DNA from: a virus
Reading direction: 5' to 3' (one strand)
Virus record (IMG/VR): IMGVR_UViG_3300048924_000012
Coordinates: 1-20,121 of that record
DNA: 20,121 bases
Made by a program: the position numbers and the translations under genes. Below are positions 4,446 through 17,050 of the stretch, in pieces. The notes below the pieces were generated by a model. That model was not told the origin of the DNA and did not search any database. It saw only the letters and a list, made by a program, of their open reading frames with translations. Position 1 is the stretch's first letter. Each line of letters opens with the position of its first letter.

Positions 4446-5317
4446 CACTTCGCTCCGAAACTGATGTTCGTCTTAGGCATCAGCGAACCTATGCCACCCG
4501 CGATGGTCGCAAACTGCTGCGCGCCTGACATCGTGTTTTCGCCGGTGCTGCTGCCGTTGTTGGTGCCGAACTGCGCCGCCACCGGTGAGACCATGCCGAG
4601 CAGGGTCTGCAACTGCGAAGCCGGGATGTTAAACATCTGCGAATAGGCGTTGATCGCAGCCGTCGGGGCCGCGTTTTGCGCCTCAAGGCCACTCGACACC
4701 GATCCCACGCCGTTCGTGAAGTTCTGATTGGCCTGGTTTTGGTTGGAGTTCAGCAGGCCATAGCTCGTATTTCCGGCGTTATAGAGCGTGCCCGCGGCAT
4801 TCAGCGCGTTCGTGGTATCGGTGTTGTACTGCTGCGCGATCACGGGCGCGACGCCGGCGGCGATGCCGCGGCCGAGCGCCTGGGAATTGCCGGGCGAGCC
4901 GTCGCGGCCGGCCGCCGCCCATGCGCCGTTGGTCTGGTTCGTGACATCCGTCGTGATCTGGTCGAGCTGGGCCTTGAGCGCCGGGTTGTTGCCGATGTTC
5001 GCGCCGCTTGCCGTCGTGCCGAGAATTCCGTTCTGGAGCCCAGAGAGGTTCGATTTGATCGCAGCATCGTTGTTCTGTGCGCCGCCCCCGTTGAGCAGCC
5101 CCATGGTCCCGGAGTTGATCTGAGGCGCATAGTTCGGCTGGTTGCTCGAGTTGTTGATGACCTGATTGAGCACGCCCTGTTCGCCGGTGGAGAGCGTTCC
5201 GGCCTGCGGCACTAACTTGTTGACTGATCCAAGGATTCCCGTCAGCGAGCTCGCGGCCGGATCGTAGGGCGCCAACTGCGACGTGCTGGTCTGCTTGCTG
5301 GTTGAGGTGCCGCCCAT
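4445..5317 (-). CDS. Gln/Asn/Ser-rich tail or ejection protein candidate (290 aa)
   Basis: It begins MGGTSTSKQTSTSQLAPYDP and is unusually rich in N, Q, G, S and A. Helical segments such as NPALKAQLDQITTDVTNQTN and repeated asparagine/glutamine patches (SYGLLNSNQNQANQNF) fill the rest, with a hydrophobic C-terminal part (FATIAGGIGSLMP). This low-complexity, cysteine-free composition suits small injected virion proteins of podoviruses, the first of a set of three here. The ATG at 5317 abuts the previous stop (TAATG); the longer frame to 5458 has an Arg-rich, shadow-like N-terminus and overlaps the GNAT-like gene, so it was not used. Function is inferred from context only. Confidence 0.7.
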   Translation of the reverse strand: MGGTSTSKQTSTSQLAPYDPAASSLTGILGSVNKLVPQAGTLSTGEQGVLNQVINNSSNQPNYAPQINSGTMGLLNGGGAQNNDAAIKSNLSGLQNGILGTTASGANIGNNPALKAQLDQITTDVTNQTNGAWAAAGRDGSPGNSQALGRGIAAGVAPVIAQQYNTDTTNALNAAGTLYNAGNTSYGLLNSNQNQANQNFTNGVGSVSSGLEAQNAAPTAAINAYSQMFNIPASQLQTLLGMVSPVAAQFGTNNGSSTGENTMSGAQQFATIAGGIGSLMPKTNISFGAK

Positions 5318-5727
5318 TACAAAGGCCTTTCCAGAACAACGTTGGAAACTCGATAATTTGGCAGTACCCGGGCCCAGCCAGCGCGGCCCATAATGCGCAC
5401 GAGTGCCGCGCCTTCGGCGCGCGCCCAATCCTCGATTTCCCTCAGCGCTTCGATCCAACGATCCATATCTGAACCGCCAAGCGCCGTGATGAGGCAGATG
5501 AGGTGCCTGTCAGTGTTCACGAGGAGCGTGGTGCACGCTGCCAAAATCTCCTTCCCCTCACAGACCAGCCACAGAAGCGCGTCGCCCTCAAGGAGATCGC
5601 TCTCGACATCCTTCGTGTGGCTCAAATCCGTTCGTAGGACGGCCGAGAACAGTGCATCCTTAACCCGAGGCCACAAATCAGGGACCATGGATGGTGGGAC
5701 ACAGATCAGTTTAGCCGAGGCAGACAT
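5317..5727 (-). CDS. GNAT-like phage protein in the tail module (136 aa)
   Basis: After MSASAKLICVPP comes an N-terminal helix, then the strands LLWLVCEGKEILAACTTLLV (51-70) and HLICLITALGG (75-85), a helix MDRWIEALREIEDWARAEGA (88-107), a strand (ALVRIMG), and the end YRVSNVVLERPL. This order matches the GNAT acetyltransferase fold, and phages of this type often carry such a protein between nozzle and ejection genes. The typical Q/R-x-x-G-x-G/A acetyl-CoA loop is not clearly present (ITALGGSDMDRW occupies the place), so catalytic activity is doubtful and a structural role is possible. The ATG at 5727 gives a 17-nt overlap with the upstream gene; an ATG at 5763 would lengthen that overlap without sensible sequence. 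Confidence 0.7.
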   Translation of the reverse strand: MSASAKLICVPPSMVPDLWPRVKDALFSAVLRTDLSHTKDVESDLLEGDALLWLVCEGKEILAACTTLLVNTDRHLICLITALGGSDMDRWIEALREIEDWARAEGAALVRIMGRAGWARVLPNYRVSNVVLERPL

Positions 5728-6025
5728 AGAAGAACGACCGATCGGTTTGAGCGTTGTTCGCATGCGAAACCGTGAACGTCTGTTTTCCGACCGACGCCAC
5801 GTATGTCGTGGACAATGCCGCAGCCGCGTTAGCGGTTTTTTGGAAGAGGAAGACGGCGCTCCCGGGAGCGCAATTCACCGCGGAAACGACCGTCGAGGTG
5901 GCGCTCGGGGTCAGGGTTACTGTTCCTGTCGCGTTCGACCGTCCCATGGCGAGCTGCTGGAGCGACATCGCGAACTTCGCGAGGTCTTTCTCTTGCGAGC
6001 CCGGAAGATAGACGCCAGCGCTCAT
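5711..6025 (-). CDS. Small beta-rich virion-associated protein (104 aa)
   Basis: An N-terminal helix (QEKDLAKFAMSLQQLAMG, 11-28) is followed by a beta-rich domain with Thr/Ser/Val strands (GTVTLTPSATSTVVSA) and the segments FQKTANAAAALSTTYVAS and FTVSHANNAQTDRSFFYVCL. The T-A-N-A-A-A-A-L-x-T-T-Y-V and F-T-V-x-H-A-N-N-A-Q-T-D-R patterns recur in small phage proteins next to tail genes, as far as I remember, so a tail or capsid-associated role is likely. The start at 6025 overlaps the nozzle stop as ATGA. The longer frame from 6103 only adds an Arg/His-rich shadow segment. Confidence 0.75.
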   Translation of the reverse strand: MSAGVYLPGSQEKDLAKFAMSLQQLAMGRSNATGTVTLTPSATSTVVSAVNCAPGSAVFLFQKTANAAAALSTTYVASVGKQTFTVSHANNAQTDRSFFYVCLG

Positions 6026-7503
6026 CGCTTGCCCGTTGCTTTGAGATCGATCGGCTCGACCCCGTTGATGAAGGTCCACACCGTCCCGGTGGGGATCCGG
6101 CATTTCAGCCGGCTATAGCGCGTGTCCAGCAGCATGTTGCAGATGCCGGTCGTTGGGTTCACAAGGCTCTCCGTGCCGGCCGAGACCGCCGCTTGCAGGT
6201 TCTCTCGCCGTGAGGCCGAACCGTAGACCGCAGGCGCGTCCGAGACTGGCCGAAATCCGACCTTGAGCTTGATGCGCTGCCCGTCGGTGCCCTGCTCAGA
6301 CGTTTCAAGCGTAGCCTCCAGGTTCGGGCCGCGGAAGAAGCTGGCAAGGTGGCCGGTATCGAAGGCGGCGAGCTCCGGCACGATCACAGTGGACAGGCTG
6401 TCGAACGACTGCGCTATCGCGTCCATGTTTGACCCAAGCAATGCGTCGAGGCCTTCCAGCGTCACGCCCGGCTGCGCCATCTTGAACAGGAATTCGCCGG
6501 AGAAGCGCAGCGGCGTGAACTTGTCGAGCACCGGATCGTAAACCAAGCCCTTGTCGAACTGGTTCGGCAAACCGTTGATGGATCGGTAGACCCACAGCAC
6601 GCGCAAGGAGCGCGGGTCTGCTGCGCCAATGAACAACTGCGGCTGTGTGGCGTCGAGGTCGGCGAAGAAGGTCCTGTCAACGCGCTCACGGCCGATCGGA
6701 ACCGGAGCGCTGCCGGGATCGATGCGCTGGAAGCCCTTCAGCGAAAAGAAGAACACAGAAGCGCCAGAACGGATCAGGCTGAGAGGCCCATAGATGCCGA
6801 GCCCATCGGCGATCTTCTCGATCTGGAACACCCGGGGATCACCCGGCAGATAGGTCATGCGCCGGATAGCGGTGTCCTGGAAGATCACTCCAGATTCGCC
6901 GCCGGCGATGCCTCGGGTAATGCCGCCGTCGGGGAGGTCCTGAGAATCGCTCGAGTTGATGCCGGCCGTCCATGAATTGGCGCCGTTCACGTCGTTGAGG
7001 CCCGACCACTGCACGCGGTTTGGATTGCTAAGCAAGCCGGTGAGCACCATAAATCGGCCGACGACATCGACATACCGCGCTTGGGGGGGGCTGCCGGCAA
7101 GGTTGGCAAAGGCGCTTGAGCTCGAGATATCGAACACCTGCGGCACCACGGAGGCTTGGCAGGCCACAACCAGATTGTTGTACTGAGCGAACGACCACTG
7201 ATCTGACGACGGCACGCTCAAATAAGGACCGCCCCCGAGAGACACCTTCGACCATGCAAACGTCGTGTTATTCAGCAGATAGAGATCAGTTGCGGTGGCG
7301 GCAAACGCCACAATGCTCCCGTCGGTTTTATATGCAGCGAACGCGCCGCGGCATTGGGCGCCAAGGGATTGCGATATCGCGGCCAAGCTTGGAAACGGAC
7401 CATAGCCGTCGCCGCGCGGAACCACGTTGAGGACGCCCTGTCCTGACTGCGCCTCGTAGTCCGAGAGGTCCGGCTTGTATTCTCCGAAGGGAATGAGCGG
7501 CAT
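6022..7503 (-). CDS. Nozzle / gp10-like packaged-DNA stabilisation protein (493 aa)
   Basis: The protein is rich in short beta strands, as expected for the beta-propeller nozzle or P22 gp10-like proteins that close the tail channel and hold packaged DNA. Recognisable parts are MPLIPFGEYKPDLSD, then QWSFAQYNNLVVACQ and VQWSGLNDVNGANSW, and the block GGESGVIFQDTAIRRMTYLP followed by GPLSLIRSGASVFFFSLKGF. P22 gp10 is 472 aa, so the size is close. It is coupled to the adaptor gene by TGATG at 7501-7505, the expected order for portal-adaptor-nozzle tails. A run of eight identical bases lies inside the gene at 7083-7090 (codons Ser-Pro-Pro-Gln, near residue 139). Confidence 0.85.
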   Translation of the reverse strand: MPLIPFGEYKPDLSDYEAQSGQGVLNVVPRGDGYGPFPSLAAISQSLGAQCRGAFAAYKTDGSIVAFAATATDLYLLNNTTFAWSKVSLGGGPYLSVPSSDQWSFAQYNNLVVACQASVVPQVFDISSSSAFANLAGSPPQARYVDVVGRFMVLTGLLSNPNRVQWSGLNDVNGANSWTAGINSSDSQDLPDGGITRGIAGGESGVIFQDTAIRRMTYLPGDPRVFQIEKIADGLGIYGPLSLIRSGASVFFFSLKGFQRIDPGSAPVPIGRERVDRTFFADLDATQPQLFIGAADPRSLRVLWVYRSINGLPNQFDKGLVYDPVLDKFTPLRFSGEFLFKMAQPGVTLEGLDALLGSNMDAIAQSFDSLSTVIVPELAAFDTGHLASFFRGPNLEATLETSEQGTDGQRIKLKVGFRPVSDAPAVYGSASRRENLQAAVSAGTESLVNPTTGICNMLLDTRYSRLKCRIPTGTVWTFINGVEPIDLKATGKR

Positions 7504-8132
7504 CAGAAGCTCGTCGGGCGGATGCGCCCGGTAGCGGCCCTTGCGCTCGTCTTGTAGTCGAGGCGGTCCTTATGGGCCTGCACCTGGGCCGACATGCGCT
7601 GCGCGCCGTCGTTATCCTCCAGCACGTTCGAATAGAGCAGAAGCTTGGCGTGGCAGCGGATCAGCTGCTCGGCGTCATTGGTCCACGCGTTGGTGTCTTC
7701 GTCGGCCGAAAGCTCGGTGAGCTTGTAGTGCATGTGCGGCCGCATCGTGTAGACCGCGGCCGGCGTCGGCCAAAGCAGGATCTGCGAGTCCACATAGGTA
7801 TAGGCGCACGGGCGCCCGTTTCCGGTCACCGTGCTTTGCAGCCACTCGAACTCGTCGGCCTCGTATTTCTCCAGCTCGGAAGGCCGGCCGCCCTCGAACA
7901 GAAACAGCGTGTCGAGGCTGATCAGGTCGGGAATTTGCGCCAGATCATCGCCACCATAAGCGATCTGCCCGATCACGGTGGGGAAAGTGAACGATCGCGT
8001 GACGTTGAAGTAGAACCGGGAAGTCTCGTAATGCCTAACGGCGTCGAGAATTGCGCTTTTTACCTGACTTGTCAGGTCGGTTCGCGTGAGGTCCGTTGCG
8101 ATCGCGGTCTGAAGGTCGAGATACGTTCCCAT
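7503..8132 (-). CDS. Head-tail adaptor protein (209 aa)
   Basis: The N-terminal helices (MGTYLDLQTAIATDLTR, then VKSAILDAVRHYETSRFYFN) and the strand FTFPTVIGQ are typical of SU10-type adaptors. So are the central PDLISLDTLFLF and YEADEFEWL segments, a beta portion (CAYTYVDSQILLWPTP) and a C-terminal helical part (EQLIRCHAKLLLYSN). In these phages adaptors form the ring between portal and nozzle. The gene's position immediately before the nozzle gene, with which it overlaps by TGATG, agrees. A GGTGG lies about 4 nt before the ATG. P22 gp4 plays the comparable role; sequence here resembles the SU10-like type more, by recollection. Confidence 0.8.
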   Translation of the reverse strand: MGTYLDLQTAIATDLTRTDLTSQVKSAILDAVRHYETSRFYFNVTRSFTFPTVIGQIAYGGDDLAQIPDLISLDTLFLFEGGRPSELEKYEADEFEWLQSTVTGNGRPCAYTYVDSQILLWPTPAAVYTMRPHMHYKLTELSADEDTNAWTNDAEQLIRCHAKLLLYSNVLEDNDGAQRMSAQVQAHKDRLDYKTSARAATGRIRPTSF

Positions 8133-8707: not shown

Positions 8708-9772
8708 TTAGTGCGCGACCGCATAGGTGGTGGCGACGATCGTTCCGAAGTCCTGGGAGTTGAAGACGCTCTTCTTCATGCCCCAGACGGTCTGCGCGGA
8801 GACGCCGAGCTCGCGCTCGTAATCGAACAGCTCCTCAATCCACTTGAAGTGGGAGCCGTTGGAGAACTCCTTGCCGAAGCCGATCGCGGCCGCCTGAGCA
8901 CCGCAGAACACGGCGCGACGGGTGTTGGCCTGGGCGGCGCCGGCGTTGGAGATGCCGACGGGCAGGCGATTCCACTTGTGCAGAACGACGCCATTGTACT
9001 CGCCGAGCGCGCCGGTATAGATCGGCGACTTCGAACCAGCGCCGCCGGCGAGAGCCGACTTCTGGATGTCGAGCCATTGGCCGGCCGAGGTCGAAATCCG
9101 CATGTCCGTGACCTGGTAGTCGTGCAGGAACATGACGAACTTCTTCTCGCCGCCGACCATGATGGGCCGGATCAGCGGAGACGCCACGTTCGCGCGTTCC
9201 ACCAGGGCGTCAATGATCTGAAGGTTCATCGTCTTGGTGGAATCGCCGTTCACCGTGGCATCGTCCGTGCCGGTCGGGCGGTAGATGCGGGTCGGCGCGG
9301 TGATGGCGTTGTTGCCGGTGTACCGGGGATCCGTCACCAGCGTATTGCCGGCCAGATGGTTCGCCATCGTGGTATCGAAGCGGTTGGAGAACCAGTCGCC
9401 GAGACCGTCCTTGGCCTCGCTGCGGAGGTTGAAGGGCACGCGCTGGGCGTCGATCGTCTGCTTGTTGCGGACGCGCGCGGCGTGGGCCAGCTCGCCGATG
9501 GTCAGGCTGTCCGAGTAGGTAGAGAGTGCCTCTTCGTTGCCCTGAAGCACCTGGCCTTCGGTAACACCGTCGCCGGTCATCTGCACGCGCAGGCCGATGG
9601 TGATCTTGTCGCCGGCGTTCTGGGACAGCTCGGTCTTGACCTGGATCATGTTCGAGGAACCCTCGCCCATGAACTTGCCGAAGTAGGTCGTCTTGAGGGC
9701 TTCGACGTTGAGCTTCTTGGCCCAAAGCTTGTTGGAAAGGACGTCATTGACGCCATAAGTCGTCGTCGACAT
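8708..9772 (-). CDS. Major capsid protein, N4-gp56 family
   Basis: The sequence has the family signature in order: TYGVNDVLSNKLWAKKLNVE (5-24), FGKFMGEGSSNMIQVKTELS (31-50), GDKITIGLRVQMTGDGV, GNEEALSTYSDSLTIGEL, and DAQRVPFNLRSEAKDGLGDW. Further on are KFVMFLHDYQVTDMR and a C-terminal region with KEFSNGSHFKWIEELFDYER and GMKKSVFNSQDFG. N4-gp56-type coat proteins adopt the HK97 fold and build the icosahedral head. The 354-aa length is usual for the family. The scaffold gene upstream fits. The 178-nt leader and GGAG upstream of the ATG may allow expression separate from the coupled genes, as expected for the most abundant virion protein. Confidence 0.93.
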   Translation of the reverse strand: MSTTTYGVNDVLSNKLWAKKLNVEALKTTYFGKFMGEGSSNMIQVKTELSQNAGDKITIGLRVQMTGDGVTEGQVLQGNEEALSTYSDSLTIGELAHAARVRNKQTIDAQRVPFNLRSEAKDGLGDWFSNRFDTTMANHLAGNTLVTDPRYTGNNAITAPTRIYRPTGTDDATVNGDSTKTMNLQIIDALVERANVASPLIRPIMVGGEKKFVMFLHDYQVTDMRISTSAGQWLDIQKSALAGGAGSKSPIYTGALGEYNGVVLHKWNRLPVGISNAGAAQANTRRAVFCGAQAAAIGFGKEFSNGSHFKWIEELFDYERELGVSAQTVWGMKKSVFNSQDFGTIVATTYAVAH

Positions 9773-9950: not shown

Positions 9951-10889
9951 TCAGCCGCCGAAAAGTCTGCGAGCCTTGGCCGGATTCTTGTTGGTCCATG
10001 CCTCGAACTCGTCTGCCGGCATGGCGATCAGCGCCTCTGCCGTCATCTCGGGATCGCCTGAGCTGCCGCCTGCGTTGGACAGGCTCTTGTTGGCCGCCTG
10101 CCCGCGCTCTATGGTCTCAAGCTTCTCAGCTGCCTTGCCCTTATTGGGATCGGCGACTTCCTTCTTATAGCCCCGCTGATTTGCCAGATTGTAAAGCATC
10201 TCGGCCGGGCTCTTGCCCTTCTCGAATGCCATCTGCGCAATCGCGAACTCGTCGGCGATGAGCGCCTGATGCAAAGCCTCCGGCGTGTCATAGCCGATGG
10301 CCTTCAATTCAGCCGCTCGCGAGTTGAGGATGAAATTGTAGGCTGCCTTGAAATCGGGCGTGTCGGCCTCGAAGTCGTCACAAGCCTTGCGATACTTGTC
10401 CACAAATGTTTTTTGTTCAGTCGCGGCCTTCTCGGAATCGGCCTTGGCCTTTTCGGCGTCGTCGATGCGCTTCTGCATCTGCGCGAGCGTCTCGCCGACG
10501 TGCTTCACCGCGCCGAAGATGTCTTCTTCCGGGTTCGGCGGGCCGGCCGGCGCCGCGGGCTCGGCCTCGCCTGCGAATTTCAGCCGATCGATGATCGCGA
10601 ACTTGCCCTTGAACTCGGCGATCTGTTTTTCGTAGTCGGTGAGCTTGCCCGCAAGCTCCTTGCGGGCCTTCTTCTCTTCCAGGAAGGTCGCGAGCGGGAC
10701 GTGATCGTTCTTGGGGGTGTCGCCGGGCTTCGCTTCGCCGCTGGCAGGCTTGGCCTCGCTGCTTTCACCGGTGCCGGGATCAGCGCCGCCTTCGGCCGGG
10801 ATGGACTTCTCGCCGCCGCTGGAGAAAAACGCCTCTTCGTCTGCCGAGAGCTGCGGGGTGCCGCCGGCGTCAATGACCTCAGGATCCAT
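9951..10889 (-). CDS. Scaffold protein (312 aa)
   Basis: The protein begins MDPEVIDAGGTPQLSADEEA and has an acidic, Gly/Glu/Pro-rich N-terminus (to about 68). Charged helical segments follow, including ATFLEEKKARKELAGKLTDY (68-87) and TLAQMQKRIDDAEKAKADSE, and a basic helical tail ends in NPAKARRLFGG. Acidic N-terminus, coiled-coil middle and positively charged C-terminal helix are the classic build of phage scaffolds, which bind coat protein through the basic tail. Its place directly before the major capsid gene supports this. There are no cysteines apart from one in KYRKACDDF. A GAAGG ribosome site precedes the ATG. Confidence 0.85.
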   Translation of the reverse strand: MDPEVIDAGGTPQLSADEEAFFSSGGEKSIPAEGGADPGTGESSEAKPASGEAKPGDTPKNDHVPLATFLEEKKARKELAGKLTDYEKQIAEFKGKFAIIDRLKFAGEAEPAAPAGPPNPEEDIFGAVKHVGETLAQMQKRIDDAEKAKADSEKAATEQKTFVDKYRKACDDFEADTPDFKAAYNFILNSRAAELKAIGYDTPEALHQALIADEFAIAQMAFEKGKSPAEMLYNLANQRGYKKEVADPNKGKAAEKLETIERGQAANKSLSNAGGSSGDPEMTAEALIAMPADEFEAWTNKNPAKARRLFGG

Positions 10890-10988: not shown

Positions 10989-11636
10989 TCAGCAAGCGAG
11001 AAGTAAAAGTGCCTCTTCTTCGCGGCGACGACGCGCAGTGGCGGTCTGGGCAGCCTGCGCCTGCTGTTGGGCATCAGCGGGAGGCGTTGCCGCGGCGGGC
11101 ACAGGCGACGCGCTAGGCATGGCCCGCAGGGGCGCAAAGCGCGGCACGGTGCGCCGATCGACCGGCCCCGGAACTTTGCGCGTGATCGCGTTGAGCTTCT
11201 TCTGGCGCTCGATCTCCTCGAGCAAATGACCGATGCCACCGAGGTTCAAATCGTAGTCGTCGCCGGTCCTGACCAGATTGGATGGAATTCCGGTAACATT
11301 GAATGCCCCTGGCCCATCAGCGAAAAGGATCGCCTCATTCGCCGACCCGCCTATGGCACCGAATGCGCCAGTCGATGCCAGCTCTGTGAGCCTAAACGTC
11401 GCGGTTTGGCCGTTAAAGACAAAGCTTGCCGCCGAGGCCGGCTCTGTCAGCCTCAAAACGCTCCCGACACCAGAAACCGCGAATGCAGCCGTGGCACTCC
11501 CACTCAGTACCTTGAACGTCGCAGCAACGCCCGCAACGGCAAAGGCGCCGGCCGCAGCCGACAATACAACGCCCTGATCTCCCTGGATCTGTCCGAGCGC
11601 AAGTCTACCGATTGCGTTGAAGCCAAGAAGCGACAT
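10989..11636 (-). CDS. Phage protein with five 20-residue beta repeats (215 aa)
   Basis: MSLLGFNAIGRLALGQIQGD leads into five consecutive repeats whose starts fall exactly 20 residues apart: AFAVAG (31), AFAVSG (51), SFVFNG (71), AFGAIG (91) and AFNVTG (111). Each is followed by a hydrophobic strand such as TFKVLSG or TFRLTELA. Phe at the second and Gly at the sixth place are invariant. Repeats of this G-A-F-x-x-x-G type occur in proteins near head and tail genes of alphaproteobacterial phages, as far as I recall, and probably form a stacked beta structure. After about residue 135 the sequence turns helical (HLLEEIERQKKLNAITRKV) and then Pro/Ala/Gln-rich, ending RRRREEEALLLLAC. Role unknown; a virion-surface or fibre-associated protein is likely. 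Confidence 0.7.
   Translation of the reverse strand: MSLLGFNAIGRLALGQIQGDQGVVLSAAAGAFAVAGVAATFKVLSGSATAAFAVSGVGSVLRLTEPASAASFVFNGQTATFRLTELASTGAFGAIGGSANEAILFADGPGAFNVTGIPSNLVRTGDDYDLNLGGIGHLLEEIERQKKLNAITRKVPGPVDRRTVPRFAPLRAMPSASPVPAAATPPADAQQQAQAAQTATARRRREEEALLLLAC
11247..11546 (-). repeat. Five tandem 60-nt (20-codon) units inside the repeat protein
   Basis: The five protein repeats occupy codons 31-130 and so form five 60-nt units. The DNA copies have diverged considerably, but the phase of the Phe and Gly codons is exact. This suggests old duplication followed by selection for the beta pattern. Confidence 0.65.
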
Positions 11637-11647
11637 CGTCTAAGCCT

Positions 11648-12832
11648 TCAGGAGTTCACGGCCTTGATAACGGCGAACTGAATGACAACAGCGTCTGTCA
11701 ACGTTCCACCGGTGTTGTTTCTTACGTCAATGGTCGCCGAACCGGCCGCTGCCCTGGCGTTGAAAACATATGACCCGAATGCCCCAGTGGAGATGTGGTT
11801 CAAAATTAAAACATCGGTGCCCGCAATCGTCGAATTTGTCAGGACAAACGATGCGACCGCACCGGACGCAAGCGCCGCAGCGTTCATCGTGATCGCACCG
11901 CAGAGCGCATTCAAGGTGACGCCCGTTGTCTTATTCGTGAGCTGAGTAACCGTTCCGCCGGCACCCGTCGCATATCCGACTCCACCGGAGGCACCATTCG
12001 ATTTGATGCTTGCGGTTGCCAGAATTGCGCCGGCACCCGGATCGGTGGTAGTCCCAACCATGACGCCTGCACCCACTGAGGCAGCGCGAGCAACCGACGC
12101 TGTGCCGGTCGGCGTGGCGTAAAGGTCAAGCCTCGCGCCTGCTGCGGCCGTGGTATAGTTTTCGGTCGCCGTCATGATGAAGCCAGCGCCGGCAGTGCTC
12201 ACATAGTCAGAGCTTACAGAAGTCGCATACCCATAGGCAAAATTGGCTCCGATAAAATCGCCGGATTGCACGGCCGCAGGCGATGCAGCTGTACCGCGCG
12301 TTTTCATGTAGCGCACGGTCGGCTGGGCAAATCCGTTGCTGTTATTAAACGACTGCAAAATAATGTCGGAACCTACGGTATCCGCATTCGCACCGTTAAA
12401 AATTGCAGCGGCAGCAAACGATCCCGCAGAAGGCAGGGCCGACGTATTTTTGCTGATAGTTATGATATCGGTGAAAGTGTTTGCTTTTGTGAGCGAAGGC
12501 AAATCCTCAGCCAAGGCAACGATCGCAACTTGCGGCGTCGTGCTGAAGCTAATCTTCGAGCCCGCTCCGCTCTGGCCGGCTCCGGTACCGGTCCCAGACG
12601 AATTGTAGAGCACCGTTGTGCGCGCAAGCACGCCGGTCCCGGTGTTGTATGTCCCCTGGCCCAGCTCCCATTGCGTCAAATCCGAGCTCTCGGCCCGATA
12701 TTTGTAGGTCCCGCCGTTCACGATCCCGGCCGATGCCGGGCTCTGATAGCCGGTTACGGCGGAAGAATAGGTCCAGTCCGCCGTTCCGCCAGCGGTAGGG
12801 GTGAAGCGACACACATTGATGAAAGCAGTCAT
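11648..12832 (-). CDS. Tail fibre/spike-type protein (394 aa)
   Basis: The first 110 residues match a domain common at the head of phage tail proteins: TPTAGGTADWTYSSAVTGYQ (11-30), then YKYRAESSDLTQWELGQGTY (43-62), RTTVLYNSSG, and QVAIVALAEDL (101-111). The rest is Ala/Thr/Gly/Ser-rich and beta-like, with GANFAYGYATSVSSDYVSTA and a C-terminal DAVVIQFAVIKAVNS. The layout suggests an N-terminal virion-attachment domain and a beta-structured shaft or receptor-binding body. Compared with its neighbours the gene looks poorer in GC, which is common for host-range genes exchanged between phages. The ATG at 12832 follows the preceding stop by one base. Confidence 0.75.
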   Translation of the reverse strand: MTAFINVCRFTPTAGGTADWTYSSAVTGYQSPASAGIVNGGTYKYRAESSDLTQWELGQGTYNTGTGVLARTTVLYNSSGTGTGAGQSGAGSKISFSTTPQVAIVALAEDLPSLTKANTFTDIITISKNTSALPSAGSFAAAAIFNGANADTVGSDIILQSFNNSNGFAQPTVRYMKTRGTAASPAAVQSGDFIGANFAYGYATSVSSDYVSTAGAGFIMTATENYTTAAAGARLDLYATPTGTASVARAASVGAGVMVGTTTDPGAGAILATASIKSNGASGGVGYATGAGGTVTQLTNKTTGVTLNALCGAITMNAAALASGAVASFVLTNSTIAGTDVLILNHISTGAFGSYVFNARAAAGSATIDVRNNTGGTLTDAVVIQFAVIKAVNS

Positions 12833-12833
12833 G

Positions 12834-13265
12834 TCAGGTGATCGTCAGGATGCCGTTGGTTTGATCGAGATCAACGGTGAAAGTGTTGCCATTCGTGAGC
12901 GTGACCGCGGCGCCATAGTCCCACCAGCCGATCAGAGGCTGCGTGCCATTGGTGTTGTAGAGCACCGCATATTGAAACGGCCCGATCGAGCCCCCCGACG
13001 CCGTCCACTGCGGATCCGTGCCGCCTACGAACTTGAACGTGCCAGAGGCCTGCGATCCCGTAATCGTGCCGACCGAGATGCCGCCAGCGGTATAGCCGTT
13101 GGCCGTCGATAGATCTGCCGGCGTATTGTAGACCGTATTCGTCGCCGCGTTCGGCGCGGTGTTGGTCAGGTAGATCTTGTAGACGTGCGCTGTGCCCGTC
13201 TGCATCTGATGCTTCGCGCTCGCAACATCGAGCACGAAGCACTGAAACTTGTTGAATATGGCCAT
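12834..13265 (-). CDS. Small beta-rich phage protein (143 aa), probable structural
   Basis: MAIFNKFQCFVLDVASAKHQ is followed by KIYLTNTAPNAATNTVYNTP, GYTAGGISVGTITGSQASG, and QYAVLYNTNGTQPLIGWWDY. The beginning, the L-T-N-T-A-P-x-A-x-T-N motif, the G-Y-T-A-G-G turn and the W-x-D-Y-G segment belong to a phage protein type I recall as common and unassigned, next to tail genes. It reads as an all-beta fold. The ATG abuts the portal stop exactly and its own stop lies one base before the tail-fibre gene, so the three are tightly coupled. Possibly a fibre-associated or head-completion protein. Confidence 0.7.
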   Translation of the reverse strand: MAIFNKFQCFVLDVASAKHQMQTGTAHVYKIYLTNTAPNAATNTVYNTPADLSTANGYTAGGISVGTITGSQASGTFKFVGGTDPQWTASGGSIGPFQYAVLYNTNGTQPLIGWWDYGAAVTLTNGNTFTVDLDQTNGILTIT

Positions 13266-15446
13266 TTACTGCGTCCCCACTGGTGCGATGCCGATGATCT
13301 CGCCCGTCTGCGGGTCGCGGATCAGCTTCTTCGGCGCGTTGAAGGCGGTCGCGAGCGTATTCATGTCGCGCCGCATTTCCTGCATGAAGGCCATTATCAG
13401 CGCTGCGGTGTCGCCGCCCTGGTTCTGCATGGGCTTGCCATCGGCGTCCGTCGGCGGCGCCGCCGTGAGCGCCTTGATCATGGCGTTATGCTGCGCTTCC
13501 TCGGCGGCGATCTTCATCTTGACTTGGCTTTCGGCCTGCATGGTCTGGATCTTGGCATCCGAGGCCTGCTTGTCGTTCGCCATCTTGGCTTGCGCCTTGT
13601 CGTTCTCCAGCTTCAGCTCGGCGTCGCGCTTCTGCTGCTCGGGATCGGGCTGCTCCTGTGACTTCTCGATGCTGTCGGAGATGTCCTTCTGCGCCGAGGT
13701 CGGCAGCGGCGAGTATTTGAGCAACGCAAGCCATGTGGCCGGCGGCAGCATCTTGCCGATGACAGGCAGGATCTGTTGCAGCATCGCCCAAGTGGCTTCT
13801 TTCTGGTTGGCAGAGGTTGGGCTTTCGTCCACGATCACGTCGTAGGAGGTCTTGCCGTCGAACGCCTGCTCCTTCACCAGCGGGACGAACTGCGCCTCAT
13901 CCGGTCCTTCGATCTTGATCAGGCGACCGTCGGAGAGGTAATGCTGGATCAGGTACAGCATGAGCCGCCCTTGCTCTTTCCGGTAGCGGCGCAGGCTGTC
14001 GAATAGCGGTTGCAGGATGGTCAAGGCCGACTGCTTGCGCTGAAGGTCGAGGCTCGCGGCCTGGCCGGCCGAGCTCTGCATGCCGAGGATCTCGACATTG
14101 ACGCCGGACACGTCGCGGAGCGATTGGTTCGCGTACTGCATGAGCTCGAAGGAGCCCTGCGGGAACTGCGACACCGGCTTGGCGATGAATTTTGGGTTCT
14201 GGCCCGAAAGTGCGCCTTGCTTCAGGTATGTGACCTGATCCTGGTGCGCCCACGACGCCTCGCCGGTCGCGTCATTGTCGAAGAACCCGCCCCGTTCCGC
14301 GGCAATACCGCCCTTCGCGGTCGAATTCATGATGTGCATGGTCTGCGACATCCACTTGTTCGACCAGCGCGCCGGGTCCTTCATGGCGCGCACGATGCCG
14401 AAGAAGACGTTCTTGTTCCGGTCGCGCTTGCCGGTCATGCACTTGAACGAGAAATTGTTCTTCGCCGGCGCGTCGCCGATCTCGAGCAGCACGTTGCCTA
14501 GATAGGCCTGCCGATAGACCTTGCGGGTGCTCTTGGTGAACTTCAACGTTCCGCCGGCCATCTTCGCCTTGGCGCTGAGTTCCTTGAATTCGTCAGTGCC
14601 GAGCGTCAGGATGGAGTCGGGATTGGTCGGATCGAGCACCAGATAGGCCGGCACACGCTCCCACCACTGGATGCGCACCATCGTCACGCACTCGTCGTCC
14701 TCGTCCTCTCCGGTGTTTTCCTTGTCGTAGGTCGTGGCGTTGTTGTGGTGAGGTTCCTCGCCGTCCTTTTCGTCGGCGAGCCACGTCGCGTTGTAGTCTT
14801 CGTCCTCGAACGGGTGATCGGGATCGCCCGGGCACAGCGCGCGCGCCTCATCGATCGGAACGTCGCGGCGGATATGAAACACGCGGCGGCCGTCCACCAG
14901 ATTGCGCTTCTTGGCTCCGCTGTCCCAGCCCATTTCGAGCGGATCGACGCGATCGACCTTAGGATCGCCCTCGGGATTATCCTCGTAGTCGAGCCTGGTC
15001 TCGGTCCAGCCCATGCCGCAGACAACCATGTCGCGAAAGGCGTCCGATTCCTCGTCCTCGGCGTCGCACTGCTGACGGAACCACTTCGCGGCCGATGTGA
15101 GGAGCTCGTTCTTCTTCACGGCGCCTTGCTGGCGCGGCAGATACTGCACTTCCTGCCGATTGCCGACCTCCTGACCGGCCACGCTGTCGATGGTGGTCCC
15201 GATGCGGTTGAAGATGACGATAGGACGCTTGGCATCCTGAAGAATGGCCTTGTCGTCCTCGGTCAGCTGCTCGCCGGCCTCGAAATCGAAGTCCTCACGG
15301 GCGTCCTTGCGCCATTTGACTTGGCCCTTGCTGTTGTAGTCGAGCTTGATCCAGCCCTTCAGCTTGGCAAAGAGGGCCTCGGCGTCCGAAGGCGTCTCCG
15401 CTGCTTCGTCGCTTCCACCACCGTAGCCGTCCGCGTCGTTCAGCAT
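13266..15446 (-). CDS. Portal protein, P22-like (726 aa)
   Basis: The length is almost that of P22 gp1 (725 aa). The N-terminal part has the marks of this portal family: VIFNRIGTTIDSVAGQEVGN, FRDMVVCGMGWTETRLDYED, RVDPLEMGWDSGAKKRNLVD, and RRVFHIRRDVPIDEARALCP. A later block is MQYANQSLRDVSGVNVEILG. The C-terminal region is a long charged helical segment (KRDAELKLENDKAQAKMAND and continuing), comparable to the coiled-coil barrel of P22 portal. It ends with IRDPQTGEIIGIAPVGTQ. The dodecameric portal sits at one capsid vertex and is the DNA channel and docking point of terminase and adaptor. It starts adjacent to the stop of the preceding short gene. Confidence 0.9.
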   Translation of the reverse strand: MLNDADGYGGGSDEAAETPSDAEALFAKLKGWIKLDYNSKGQVKWRKDAREDFDFEAGEQLTEDDKAILQDAKRPIVIFNRIGTTIDSVAGQEVGNRQEVQYLPRQQGAVKKNELLTSAAKWFRQQCDAEDEESDAFRDMVVCGMGWTETRLDYEDNPEGDPKVDRVDPLEMGWDSGAKKRNLVDGRRVFHIRRDVPIDEARALCPGDPDHPFEDEDYNATWLADEKDGEEPHHNNATTYDKENTGEDEDDECVTMVRIQWWERVPAYLVLDPTNPDSILTLGTDEFKELSAKAKMAGGTLKFTKSTRKVYRQAYLGNVLLEIGDAPAKNNFSFKCMTGKRDRNKNVFFGIVRAMKDPARWSNKWMSQTMHIMNSTAKGGIAAERGGFFDNDATGEASWAHQDQVTYLKQGALSGQNPKFIAKPVSQFPQGSFELMQYANQSLRDVSGVNVEILGMQSSAGQAASLDLQRKQSALTILQPLFDSLRRYRKEQGRLMLYLIQHYLSDGRLIKIEGPDEAQFVPLVKEQAFDGKTSYDVIVDESPTSANQKEATWAMLQQILPVIGKMLPPATWLALLKYSPLPTSAQKDISDSIEKSQEQPDPEQQKRDAELKLENDKAQAKMANDKQASDAKIQTMQAESQVKMKIAAEEAQHNAMIKALTAAPPTDADGKPMQNQGGDTAALIMAFMQEMRRDMNTLATAFNAPKKLIRDPQTGEIIGIAPVGTQ

Positions 15447-15739: not shown

Positions 15740-17050
15740 TTAGACGCTCTGCCATGAGCCGCCGCCGCGGTTGCGGGATCGCGAATACGGGACGTGCGCG
15801 GCCGGCGCATACGGCGCCTCGTAGCAGACCGCCATCAGGCCAAGGCTGTCTGCGGCGTGCGAGCTCCAATCGTGCTCTGGCCCAAGGCCGATGTTGCGGG
15901 TCTCATCCTTCCGCTCATGGTAGTAGCCGACGGCATCAAGCCCTGCTTCCACCGCGGGCGTCTCGGAGAACCAGCAGAACGGGAAGACGCGGCGGGTGGC
16001 CTCGACGCGCATCATGGCGGCGCCGGCGCCCTGGTTCGGGATCGGCTCGGGACAGTCAAAGCCCGCTTCGCGCCAGTGATCGACATAGCGCTTGCCGGTG
16101 ATTGCGTTGGCGTTGGTGCCGTCATGCGGCAGCTGGATCACCGCGCGCGTGTAGCCTCGGGTCCTGAGCTCGTTGACGTAATATTCGAGCGGCTGGCCAA
16201 GGCCCTCGATGTAGTCGAGCACCCGGATTTGCGGGCCGACCCACTGCGTCACCCACAGCGACATGGCGTCGGCCTTCGCTCCAGCGCCGCCGATGTCCAC
16301 AAAGATTTTGATGGGGAGCAGCGGATCGGCTGGAATGATGCCCTTGCCGATACGCCCCTGAGCCTTGGCCTCGGCGATCTGACGGGCGTAATAGGCGCCC
16401 TCGAATGCGCGCGCGTAGCCGCCTTCCCAGATGTGATCGTACCGCTCGGGATATTTCGAGAGGTCGAGCAGGCGCTCTTGCTCGAGCACGTCGTTGAACC
16501 AGGGATTATCGCGCCAATTGGCTGGGACCACGATGGCACCAGGCGGCGGATCAGCGCGCAGGAACTCATCAATCGCATCGACCTTGCGCCGTGGATTCCA
16601 CGCGGCCCAAATCTCTGAACCGTCGGCTCGGATAGTTGGGCGAAGCAGCGATAGAGACCTTGAACTTAGCGTCTGAGCTTCTTCGATAAACGCTCTTTTG
16701 AAACCTTCGAGCGACTTGATGCTTTCCGCCGTGTGATCCTGCATACCCTGAAAGATGATGATGCCATCGCCCGGCGTTTCGATCTTGTCATTGAACACCC
16801 GAAATTCGGAGCCGACGCCGAGTTCCTGAATTTTCTTCTCGATCAGACGCTTGGAGGATTGAGCGAGCGTCTTCTGTACCTCGCGGATGCAGACCGATAG
16901 CATCCCCTTTTCATAGAGGCTGTCTTCCACGATCATCTCGCAGAAGAAGTGCGATTTTCCAGAGCCGCGGCCGCCATACGCACCTTTGTAGCGGGCGGGC
17001 TGGAGCAGAGGCCGGAAGACGTGTGCGGTGGGGATCTGGAGCGTGGTCAA
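15740..17050 (-). CDS. Terminase large subunit (436 aa)
   Basis: This ATPase-nuclease drives DNA into the procapsid and cuts the concatemer. Walker A is GGRGSGKS (26-33) within YKGAYGGRGSGKSHF, and Walker B is AFIEEA (120-125). A coupling segment, EIWAAWNP, lies at 146-153. The C-terminal RNase H-like nuclease shows IFVDIGG with Asp252, LPHDG with Asp310, and SHAADSLG with Asp401. The pattern fits the Terminase_3-like group used by P22/PBSX-related phages. A TTG start at 17050 overlaps the preceding stop (TTGA); no upstream in-frame start exists and the first residues TTLQIPTAHVFRPL are usual for the family. The portal gene follows after one small gene. Confidence 0.93.
   Translation of the reverse strand: MTTLQIPTAHVFRPLLQPARYKGAYGGRGSGKSHFFCEMIVEDSLYEKGMLSVCIREVQKTLAQSSKRLIEKKIQELGVGSEFRVFNDKIETPGDGIIIFQGMQDHTAESIKSLEGFKRAFIEEAQTLSSRSLSLLRPTIRADGSEIWAAWNPRRKVDAIDEFLRADPPPGAIVVPANWRDNPWFNDVLEQERLLDLSKYPERYDHIWEGGYARAFEGAYYARQIAEAKAQGRIGKGIIPADPLLPIKIFVDIGGAGAKADAMSLWVTQWVGPQIRVLDYIEGLGQPLEYYVNELRTRGYTRAVIQLPHDGTNANAITGKRYVDHWREAGFDCPEPIPNQGAGAAMMRVEATRRVFPFCWFSETPAVEAGLDAVGYYHERKDETRNIGLGPEHDWSSHAADSLGLMAVCYEAPYAPAAHVPYSRSRNRGGGSWQSV

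Follow-up and report, generated by a model that had tools for sequence, protein, structure and literature searches.

The window analysed here, an entire virus record of 20,121 bases that is probably a fragment, carries a gene (C) whose product contains five tandem 20-residue repeats. The repeat is real and conserved, and C belongs to a three-gene cassette, A-B-C, rather than to the scaffold. The best explanation that we can offer, tentatively and at a probability of about 0.4, is that C is a minor tail protein of this host-attachment cassette, acting as a solenoid spacer that anchors the cassette's fibre on the virion. We infer that C is located in the virion, where its repeats probably form a stiff, beta-rich spacer that helps to fix a host-recognition fibre to the tail. 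The coordinates of C, its parts, and the neighbouring genes are collected in Table 1.

Table 1. Gene C, its parts, and surrounding genes of the 20,121-base window.
Feature	Coordinates	Strand	Description and basis
Gene C	10989..11636	minus	Repeat protein, 215 aa; ORF and 79 distinct homologues
N-terminal motif of C, residues 1-17 (MSLLGFNAIGRLALGQI)	11586..11636	minus	51-row alignment A2, window included
Five 60-nt/20-residue repeats of C, residues 26-125	11262..11561	minus	Lag score, family consensus, and shuffle control
C-terminal tail of C, residues 126-215 and stop	10989..11261	minus	Lineage-a type; two helices in the model
Gene B	11648..12832	minus	Tail-fibre-like, a name resting on the match of B in the relative L112 to phrog_11393 "tail fiber protein"; phrog_18251 (function unknown); first 110 aa common to both lineages, remainder variable
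Gene A	12834..13265	minus	143 aa; phrog_644 (function unknown)
Portal, left flank of cassette	13266..15446	minus	P22_portal
Scaffold-type gene, right flank of cassette	9951..10889	minus	Position and conservation; name inferred from position
Major capsid protein	8708..9772	minus	Phage_capsid_3
Tail adaptor	7503..8132	minus	SU10_adaptor
Nozzle/stabilization-type protein	6022..7503	minus	phrog_3287, virion structural protein; common to both cassette-bearing lineages; "nozzle" taken from annotated relatives
Large terminase	15740-17050		

The periodic stretch of the preliminary description (11247-11546) corresponds to residues 31-130 of the minus-strand ORF. The in-register units of C start at residues 26, 46, 66, 86, and 106, and the starts at 31, 51, 71, 91, and 111 apply when counting from the residue that precedes the Phe. 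As had been described, the five copies are free of indels and all five possess the invariant Phe (residues 32, 52, 72, 92, and 112) and Gly (residues 36, 56, 76, 96, and 116). The mean BLOSUM62 score for residues 21-130 was 0.89 at lag 20, the runner-up was the multiple 40 with a score of 0.29, and no score of 0.89 or above occurred at lags 3-49 in 5000 shuffles. The divergence of the DNA copies was also confirmed. Identities between copies were 33-53% for DNA and 15-35% for protein, indicating that the copies are old.

With the C protein alone as the query, sequence searches of viral contigs, species genomes, phages, and plasmids returned no relative, and neither Pfam nor PHROGs contained a match to window C. 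The capsid gene was used as a query and led to 19 loci, 9 of which carry a repeat protein; these nine proteins plus that of the window made up alignment A1. The search with A1 yielded 85 viral loci (80 retained) and 10 genome loci (eight from Bradyrhizobium, including the complete sequence of BTAi1, one from a Xanthobacteraceae MAG, and one from a Lysobacterales MAG). The total of 90 loci, some being the same prophage present in two collections, provided 79 distinct proteins, and 50 of these homologues were combined with the window protein as alignment A2 (51 rows). When A2 was scanned row by row, 0 of the 51 rows matched PHROGs or Pfam at E <= 0.01, and the single row that matched NCBIfam, at 0.0087 to an unrelated L,D-transpeptidase model, probably did so by chance. 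Comparison of two family profiles to the PDB gave nothing convincing (best E values of 0.2 and 0.4), and searches of a library of open-access papers listed nothing on 20-residue repeats in phage virions or tail fibres, on solenoid repeats of Bradyrhizobium prophages, or on the N-terminal motif. The family was present in 16 of 117 sampled genomes from the genus of the L111 host, Bradyrhizobium sp. CSA112, with one of the 16 matches containing a stop codon. For the phylum of that host, the search, which scored fewer candidates per genome than the genus search, found the family in 2 of 299 genomes, both already in the genus sample. One of the capsid relatives, L018, which has no A on its contig, shows a strong 21-residue repeat in a different protein (5761-6441).

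Gene A is located upstream of C in 89 of the 90 loci and B in 87, a constant linkage of C to a fibre-like gene. The exceptions are L037, which shows neither gene because its contig starts at C, and L047 and L072, for which no B was detected. C is the last of the three genes; it starts at or adjoining the end of B in L039, L045, L096, L112, and L113 and lies 11 bases after B in the window, and other genes are found between B and C in L041 and L077. The C-terminal tails of C differ between two lineages, and the two classes of tail coincide with two positions of the cassette. For class a, the lineage of the window, the order portal-A-B-C-scaffold was observed in 18 of 21 loci, and the remaining loci had no downstream match (two) or no upstream match (one). 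For class b, the order adaptor-A-(B)-C-nozzle was observed in 60 of 65 loci; four others had no nozzle match (L070, L079, and L083 end soon after C, and L068 continues for 4.8 kb without a nozzle), and in L094 the nozzle match begins ahead of C. The other four of the 90 loci were of another type. The tail agreed with the position in 86 of 86 classed loci, an agreement that is essentially one historical split, whatever the number of loci. A further check of 16 regions provided 4 that had no LGFDA-type motif and were left unclassed, 6 that repeated counted loci, and 6 new loci, all concordant (five of class b after the adaptor and one of class a between portal and scaffold). Genome G109 carries one cassette of each class. 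The capsid relatives that have no cassette (L016, L019, L020, L022, and L023) have portal and scaffold adjoining or nearly so. The location of C between tail-fibre and scaffold genes agrees with the preliminary description, but the suggestion that this is an unusual place for a fibre-like repeat was not borne out; it is the standard slot of the lineage, as seen in the 18 of 21 loci with both flanks. By eye, the last 50-60 residues of the lineage-b C tails (for example, in L112, L063, and L111) consist of Trp-rich short repeats like EAWTPxxxQPExWT.

Within the family, the N-terminal motif MSLLGFDAxGRLALGQ is near-invariant, with L4, G5, F6, A8, G10, and R11 found in 51 of 51 A2 rows. The commonest letters of 399 units define an approximate consensus of AAAAG(S/A)(Y/F)A(L/V)TGNAAAFx(V/I)xx, in which position 7 is Phe/Tyr in 296 units, position 9 is Leu/Val/Phe/Ile in 287, position 11 is Gly in 315, and position 16 is Phe in 236. 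Under a free phase, 295 of 396 units (74%) had Phe/Tyr at position 7 and 315 of 396 (80%) had Gly at position 11, compared to 26% and 33%, respectively, in shuffled arrays. Among lags 10-30, lag 20 scored highest in 74 of the 79 distinct homologues, a count that includes the C-terminal tail in some proteins without an anchor. Lag 40 was not preferred over lag 20 (0.82 versus 0.86). Two features of beta-solenoid proteins, a regular coil length (a period of 20 residues) and alternating hydrophobic positions in the unit, are both present.

Array lengths were measured from the motif to the C-terminal anchor, which was absent from 8 of 80 proteins. The arrays of class b spanned 131-134 residues in 52 of 54 anchored members, with 173 and 187 residues in the other two, and those of class a (n = 18) spanned 111-113 residues in 10 members (window included), 106-108 in 3, 139 in 1, and 153-156 in 4. 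These quantised lengths indicate that the copy number changes mostly by whole units. A comparison of repeat number between related phages, suggested in the preliminary description as a check, revealed about 3 to 9 units (5 or 7 in lineage a and 3, 6, 8, or about 9 in lineage b) with the period of 20 retained. Copy-number steps of two, considered on the basis of the lengths 113/153 and 133/173, were rejected in view of the approximately nine units of L087 and the three of L077. Two adjoining 40-residue array blocks of L103 (5001-5747) look nearly identical in protein, which suggests a two-unit duplication. For 31 non-independent close pairs, the dN/dS values of the repeats were 0.19-0.63, and those of the rest of C, computable for 30 pairs, were 0.10-0.36; the repeats had the higher value in 28 pairs and the two regions were level to two decimals in 2. 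Selection on C thus appears to be purifying, and looser in the array than in the ends. The lag counts, the dN/dS values of the repeats, and the array lengths of class b bear out the earlier claim that the period is held by selection.

The genes around the cassette were compared between lineages. Five window proteins (portal, scaffold, capsid, decoration, and adaptor) exhibited median identities of 60-79% to class a versus 27-51% to 12 loci without an A match, three of which (L017, L018, and L021) have the portal-scaffold slot outside the sequence. Because most class-b loci include about 5 kb of upstream sequence (median of 5001 bases), portal and scaffold were tested on longer pieces; in the nine class-b loci with about 14 kb upstream, 0 of 9 matched the window portal, scaffold, capsid, or adaptor at E <= 1e-3. 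At a looser cut-off, an adaptor resemblance was seen in nine class-b loci, with identities of 24-25% in the four best. The nozzle had median identities to the window of 76% in class a (14 loci), 55% in class b (58 loci), and 34% in loci without an A match (9 loci), and the four genes after the nozzle are also present in class b (medians of 37-45%). A small tail-cluster gene of the window (5317-5763) encodes a protein with no Pfam match at 0.01, and similarly placed genes are annotated as acetyltransferases in Pam1, Paracoccus phage KLEP18-1, and MW202473.1. The large terminase of the window was 61-72% identical to that of 4 of 9 class-b loci versus 41-45% for three class-a regions in the same test; it was 91% identical in class-a L030 and L032 and at most 45% in loci without A, a pattern that we read as mosaic exchange outside the tail. 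The lineages thus have distinct head-core blocks flanked on either side by common genes, among them those for the nozzle and, in some loci, the large terminase. Because the large terminase is shared too, exchange extended beyond the tail tip, and the sharing of the nozzle becomes weaker evidence for a tail role. The cassette travels with the shared part that includes the nozzle, which is compatible with a tail role without proving one. In PMC10386132, the product of tubeA/gene 4 is described as the tail protein that the tail fibres attach to.

The cassette itself has a mixed ancestry in the window. The four class-b proteins closest to window A had identities of 83-85%, no class-a protein exceeded 54%, and the N-terminus of window B was 85% identical to class b versus 73% to class a. 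The C-tail of the window was 61-66% identical to its four best class-a matches, whereas comparison to class b gave only four weak stretches of 39-76 residues at 29-36%. Distal B had hardly any relatives among these loci (25-29% identity in the best rows). In a tree of A (76 rows and 140 columns, a quick method with one support measure, 40 of 73 inner branches open), the window grouped with four class-b rows with a support of 98, and at least four changes of class a are required on well-supported branches. The identities of A, the B start, and the C-tail, together with the A tree, indicate that A crossed lineages, as did at least the beginning of B in the window, and that the C-tail was kept with the position. 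Region 11648-13265 of the window, comprising A and the N-terminal part of B of lineage-b ancestry within a lineage-a genome, amounts to a natural exchange. In 150-base bins, the window DNA matched that of class-a L034 up to the bin at 11101, showed no match in bins 11251 and 11401 (the repeats), showed weak short matches at 11551, and showed no match from 11701 to 12301 (distal B). Judged from these comparisons, the repeats of C and distal B are fast-changing stretches.

Structure prediction was performed with AlphaFold2. Window C (10 rows) yielded a pLDDT of 49 and a pTM of 0.22, with predicted strands at residues 32-35/40-43, 52-56/60-63, 72-76/80-83, 92-95, and 112-115 and predicted helices at 135-153 and 187-214. 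The homologue L112 (51 rows) yielded a mean pLDDT of 63.5 and a pTM of 0.46; ten-residue blocks over residues 31-140 attained pLDDT values of 67-77, each unit was modelled with one long or two short strands, and the lineage-b C-terminus had no helix. When the L112 model was compared to the PDB by Foldseek, solenoids predominated among the matches listed (LpxD, CsgA fibril, ice-binding protein, bactofilin, and GlmU), none of them at E <= 0.001 (best E of 0.089, TM-scores under 0.3). A single BFVD match was obtained at E <= 0.001 (A0A1B1INP9, 2.5e-5, TM of about 0.2). The top VIA-align row for the L112 model was the CsgA curli fibril, with a Z of 9.9 but an rmsd of 9.1; 4opw gave a Z of 9.0 (rmsd of 3.1, 122 aligned) and 3jx8 a Z of 8.6 (rmsd of 3.4, 127 aligned), values of a size that the tool's own note calls common for repeats. 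These beta-solenoid adhesins and fibrils (4opw, 3jx8, bactofilin, and CsgA) have no sequence relation to C. According to PMC11795689, AlphaFold2 makes solenoids of over 40% of random repeat sequences, the large majority with pLDDT values of 70 or more. The beta-solenoid joined to a charged helical tail that had been suggested from the window receives moderate support: the repeat blocks of L112 at pLDDT values of 67-77, the mostly solenoid matches, and the two window helices speak for it, and the low pLDDT of the window model, the absence of a PDB match at E <= 0.001, and the over-prediction of solenoids count against it. For the repeats of C, the predicted beta-solenoid is the leading model, not a result.

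Repeats of a similar kind were encountered in other phages. The gp72 protein of EBPR siphovirus 2 (AEI71088.1, JF412297.1; the record is named a siphovirus) resembles C in having N-terminal tandem units of type GxFxLxGQ.. and matched the C profile by hhalign (95.7%, E of 8.4e-9) and the unit profile (10.8 bits and 9 units, compared to 5.2 for the best of 20 shuffles); an A homologue (gp76) lies four genes upstream. Unlike C, gp72 combines its repeats with a tail-cluster protein region (510 residues matching phrog_8917), scores highest at lag 38 and next at lag 20, and has no LGFDA-GR motif. In the Manatee Spring podoviruses MW202473.1 and MW202478.1, the gene directly after the A homologue encodes tandem repeats (YTLTGTAKTTTF... 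in MW202478.1) together with the tail adaptor domain phrog_394, with a period of 22 or 44 as opposed to 20 in C. Tail adaptor proteins with an N-terminal 22-residue repeat array are encoded directly downstream of the A homologue in L116 (6418-8679) and L120 (5406-7364). Neither the profile (L120) nor the unit profile (L116 and L120) related the adaptor-fused 22-residue repeats to C; we regard them as analogous, homology not being shown, with repeats of similar style attached to the adaptor in a like neighbourhood. No C-type units were detected by the unit profile in Pam1 gp10 or Keelan gp57. Another podovirus has A, one small gene, and then a pectate lyase gene, and in Gordonia phage Keelan A follows minor tail genes. 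Pam1 gp09, an A homologue, is annotated as hypothetical and goes unnamed in a portion of PMC9382816. The A-B-C cassette is comparable to phage tail-fibre gene cassettes, which likewise contain a fibre-like gene with a constant N-terminus and a variable distal part that is exchanged between phages; the A-B-C cassette differs in that its fibre comes with a dedicated repeat protein whose tail is lineage-specific.

The proposal that C is a minor tail protein with a solenoid spacer is supported by the cassette linkage, the two positions, the shared nozzle, the unshared head core, the C-tail that follows the head core, and the predicted fold, as well as by the fusion of this repeat type to a tail-cluster protein in EBPR siphovirus 2 gp72 and by the location of the A homologue ahead of a repeat-fused adaptor gene or a pectate lyase gene in other podoviruses. 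It is weakened by the poor window model, the over-prediction of solenoids, the Foldseek search of the PDB with no match at E <= 0.001, the shared terminase, the single historical split, the small A tree with its many open branches, and the looser selection on the repeats. According to this proposal, the N-terminal motif would dock to something common to both lineages (B, A, or the nozzle), and the repeats would form a short two-sided beta-solenoid in which each 20-residue unit makes one coil; Phe7 and Phe16 would occupy the core and Gly11 a turn, and the solenoid would act as a rigid spacer whose length is fixed. The lineage-specific C-tail, helical in the window, would dock to a lineage-varying part, such as the adaptor, the portal, or another head-core protein, and C would thereby tie an exchangeable fibre to different heads. 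A rather unlikely alternative is that C itself is a homotrimeric fibre shaft, in which three chains would build a beta structure from the strands of their 20-residue units and would be trimerised by the helical tail. Such a shaft would suit a gene that follows a tail-fibre-like gene, the poor folding of the window monomer with its shallow alignment, the presence of up to two strands per unit, and a C-terminal helix (187-214) that could be a coiled coil. Against it, L112 reached its repeat pLDDT values as a monomer with 51 rows and retrieved mostly solenoids, and the lineage-b C-terminus is without a helix in the model. Moreover, the unit of the triple beta-spiral is 15 residues, as opposed to the 20 residues found in C.

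A position directly after the fibre gene is a common one for tail-fibre chaperone genes, and C, placed directly after the fibre-like B (at or next to its end in the five loci named above and within 11 bases in the window), could encode an assembly chaperone for B that is needed for folding and not kept in the particle. We consider this improbable because other genes separate B and C in L041 and L077, distal B hardly has relatives among these loci while the ends of C stay constant, the C-tail follows the head core, and EBPR siphovirus 2 has a C-type repeat joined to a tail-cluster protein. A head-assembly or scaffold-side function might be read from the lineage-a gene order beside the scaffold and from the association of the C-tail with head-core genes. 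It is very unlikely given that the 65 class-b loci have C after the adaptor gene, with the nozzle next among the genes searched in 60, and that the five cassette-free relatives have the same head genes. We give even less credence to the repeats being a flexible low-complexity linker without a fixed fold, as the Ala/Gly/Ser-rich units and the low pLDDT of the window model would allow, since the class-b arrays are so constant in length and the Phe/Tyr at position 7 and Gly at position 11 far exceed their frequencies in shuffled arrays.

A further, unlikely reading is that C serves as a coupling device, letting one fibre module and tail tip serve different head cores. Its universal N-terminus would bind the shared fibre/nozzle side, its C-terminus would be a lineage-specific neck plug, and the solenoid would be a ruler with a length that changes mostly by whole coils. 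If true, this reading would explain why A and the start of B crossed lineages while the C-tail stayed. Fibre exchange is a main route of host-range change, and the compatibility of fibre modules with different heads is seldom visible in sequence. C is an uncatalogued repeat protein that travels with a fibre-like gene, and because one of its ends is constant across head cores and the other is lineage-specific, the coupling role is directly testable in a laboratory Bradyrhizobium prophage. The N-terminal motif, which would allow the C family to be annotated, recurs (GLDALGRLAIGQ) within the array of the L035 repeat protein (5001-5753).
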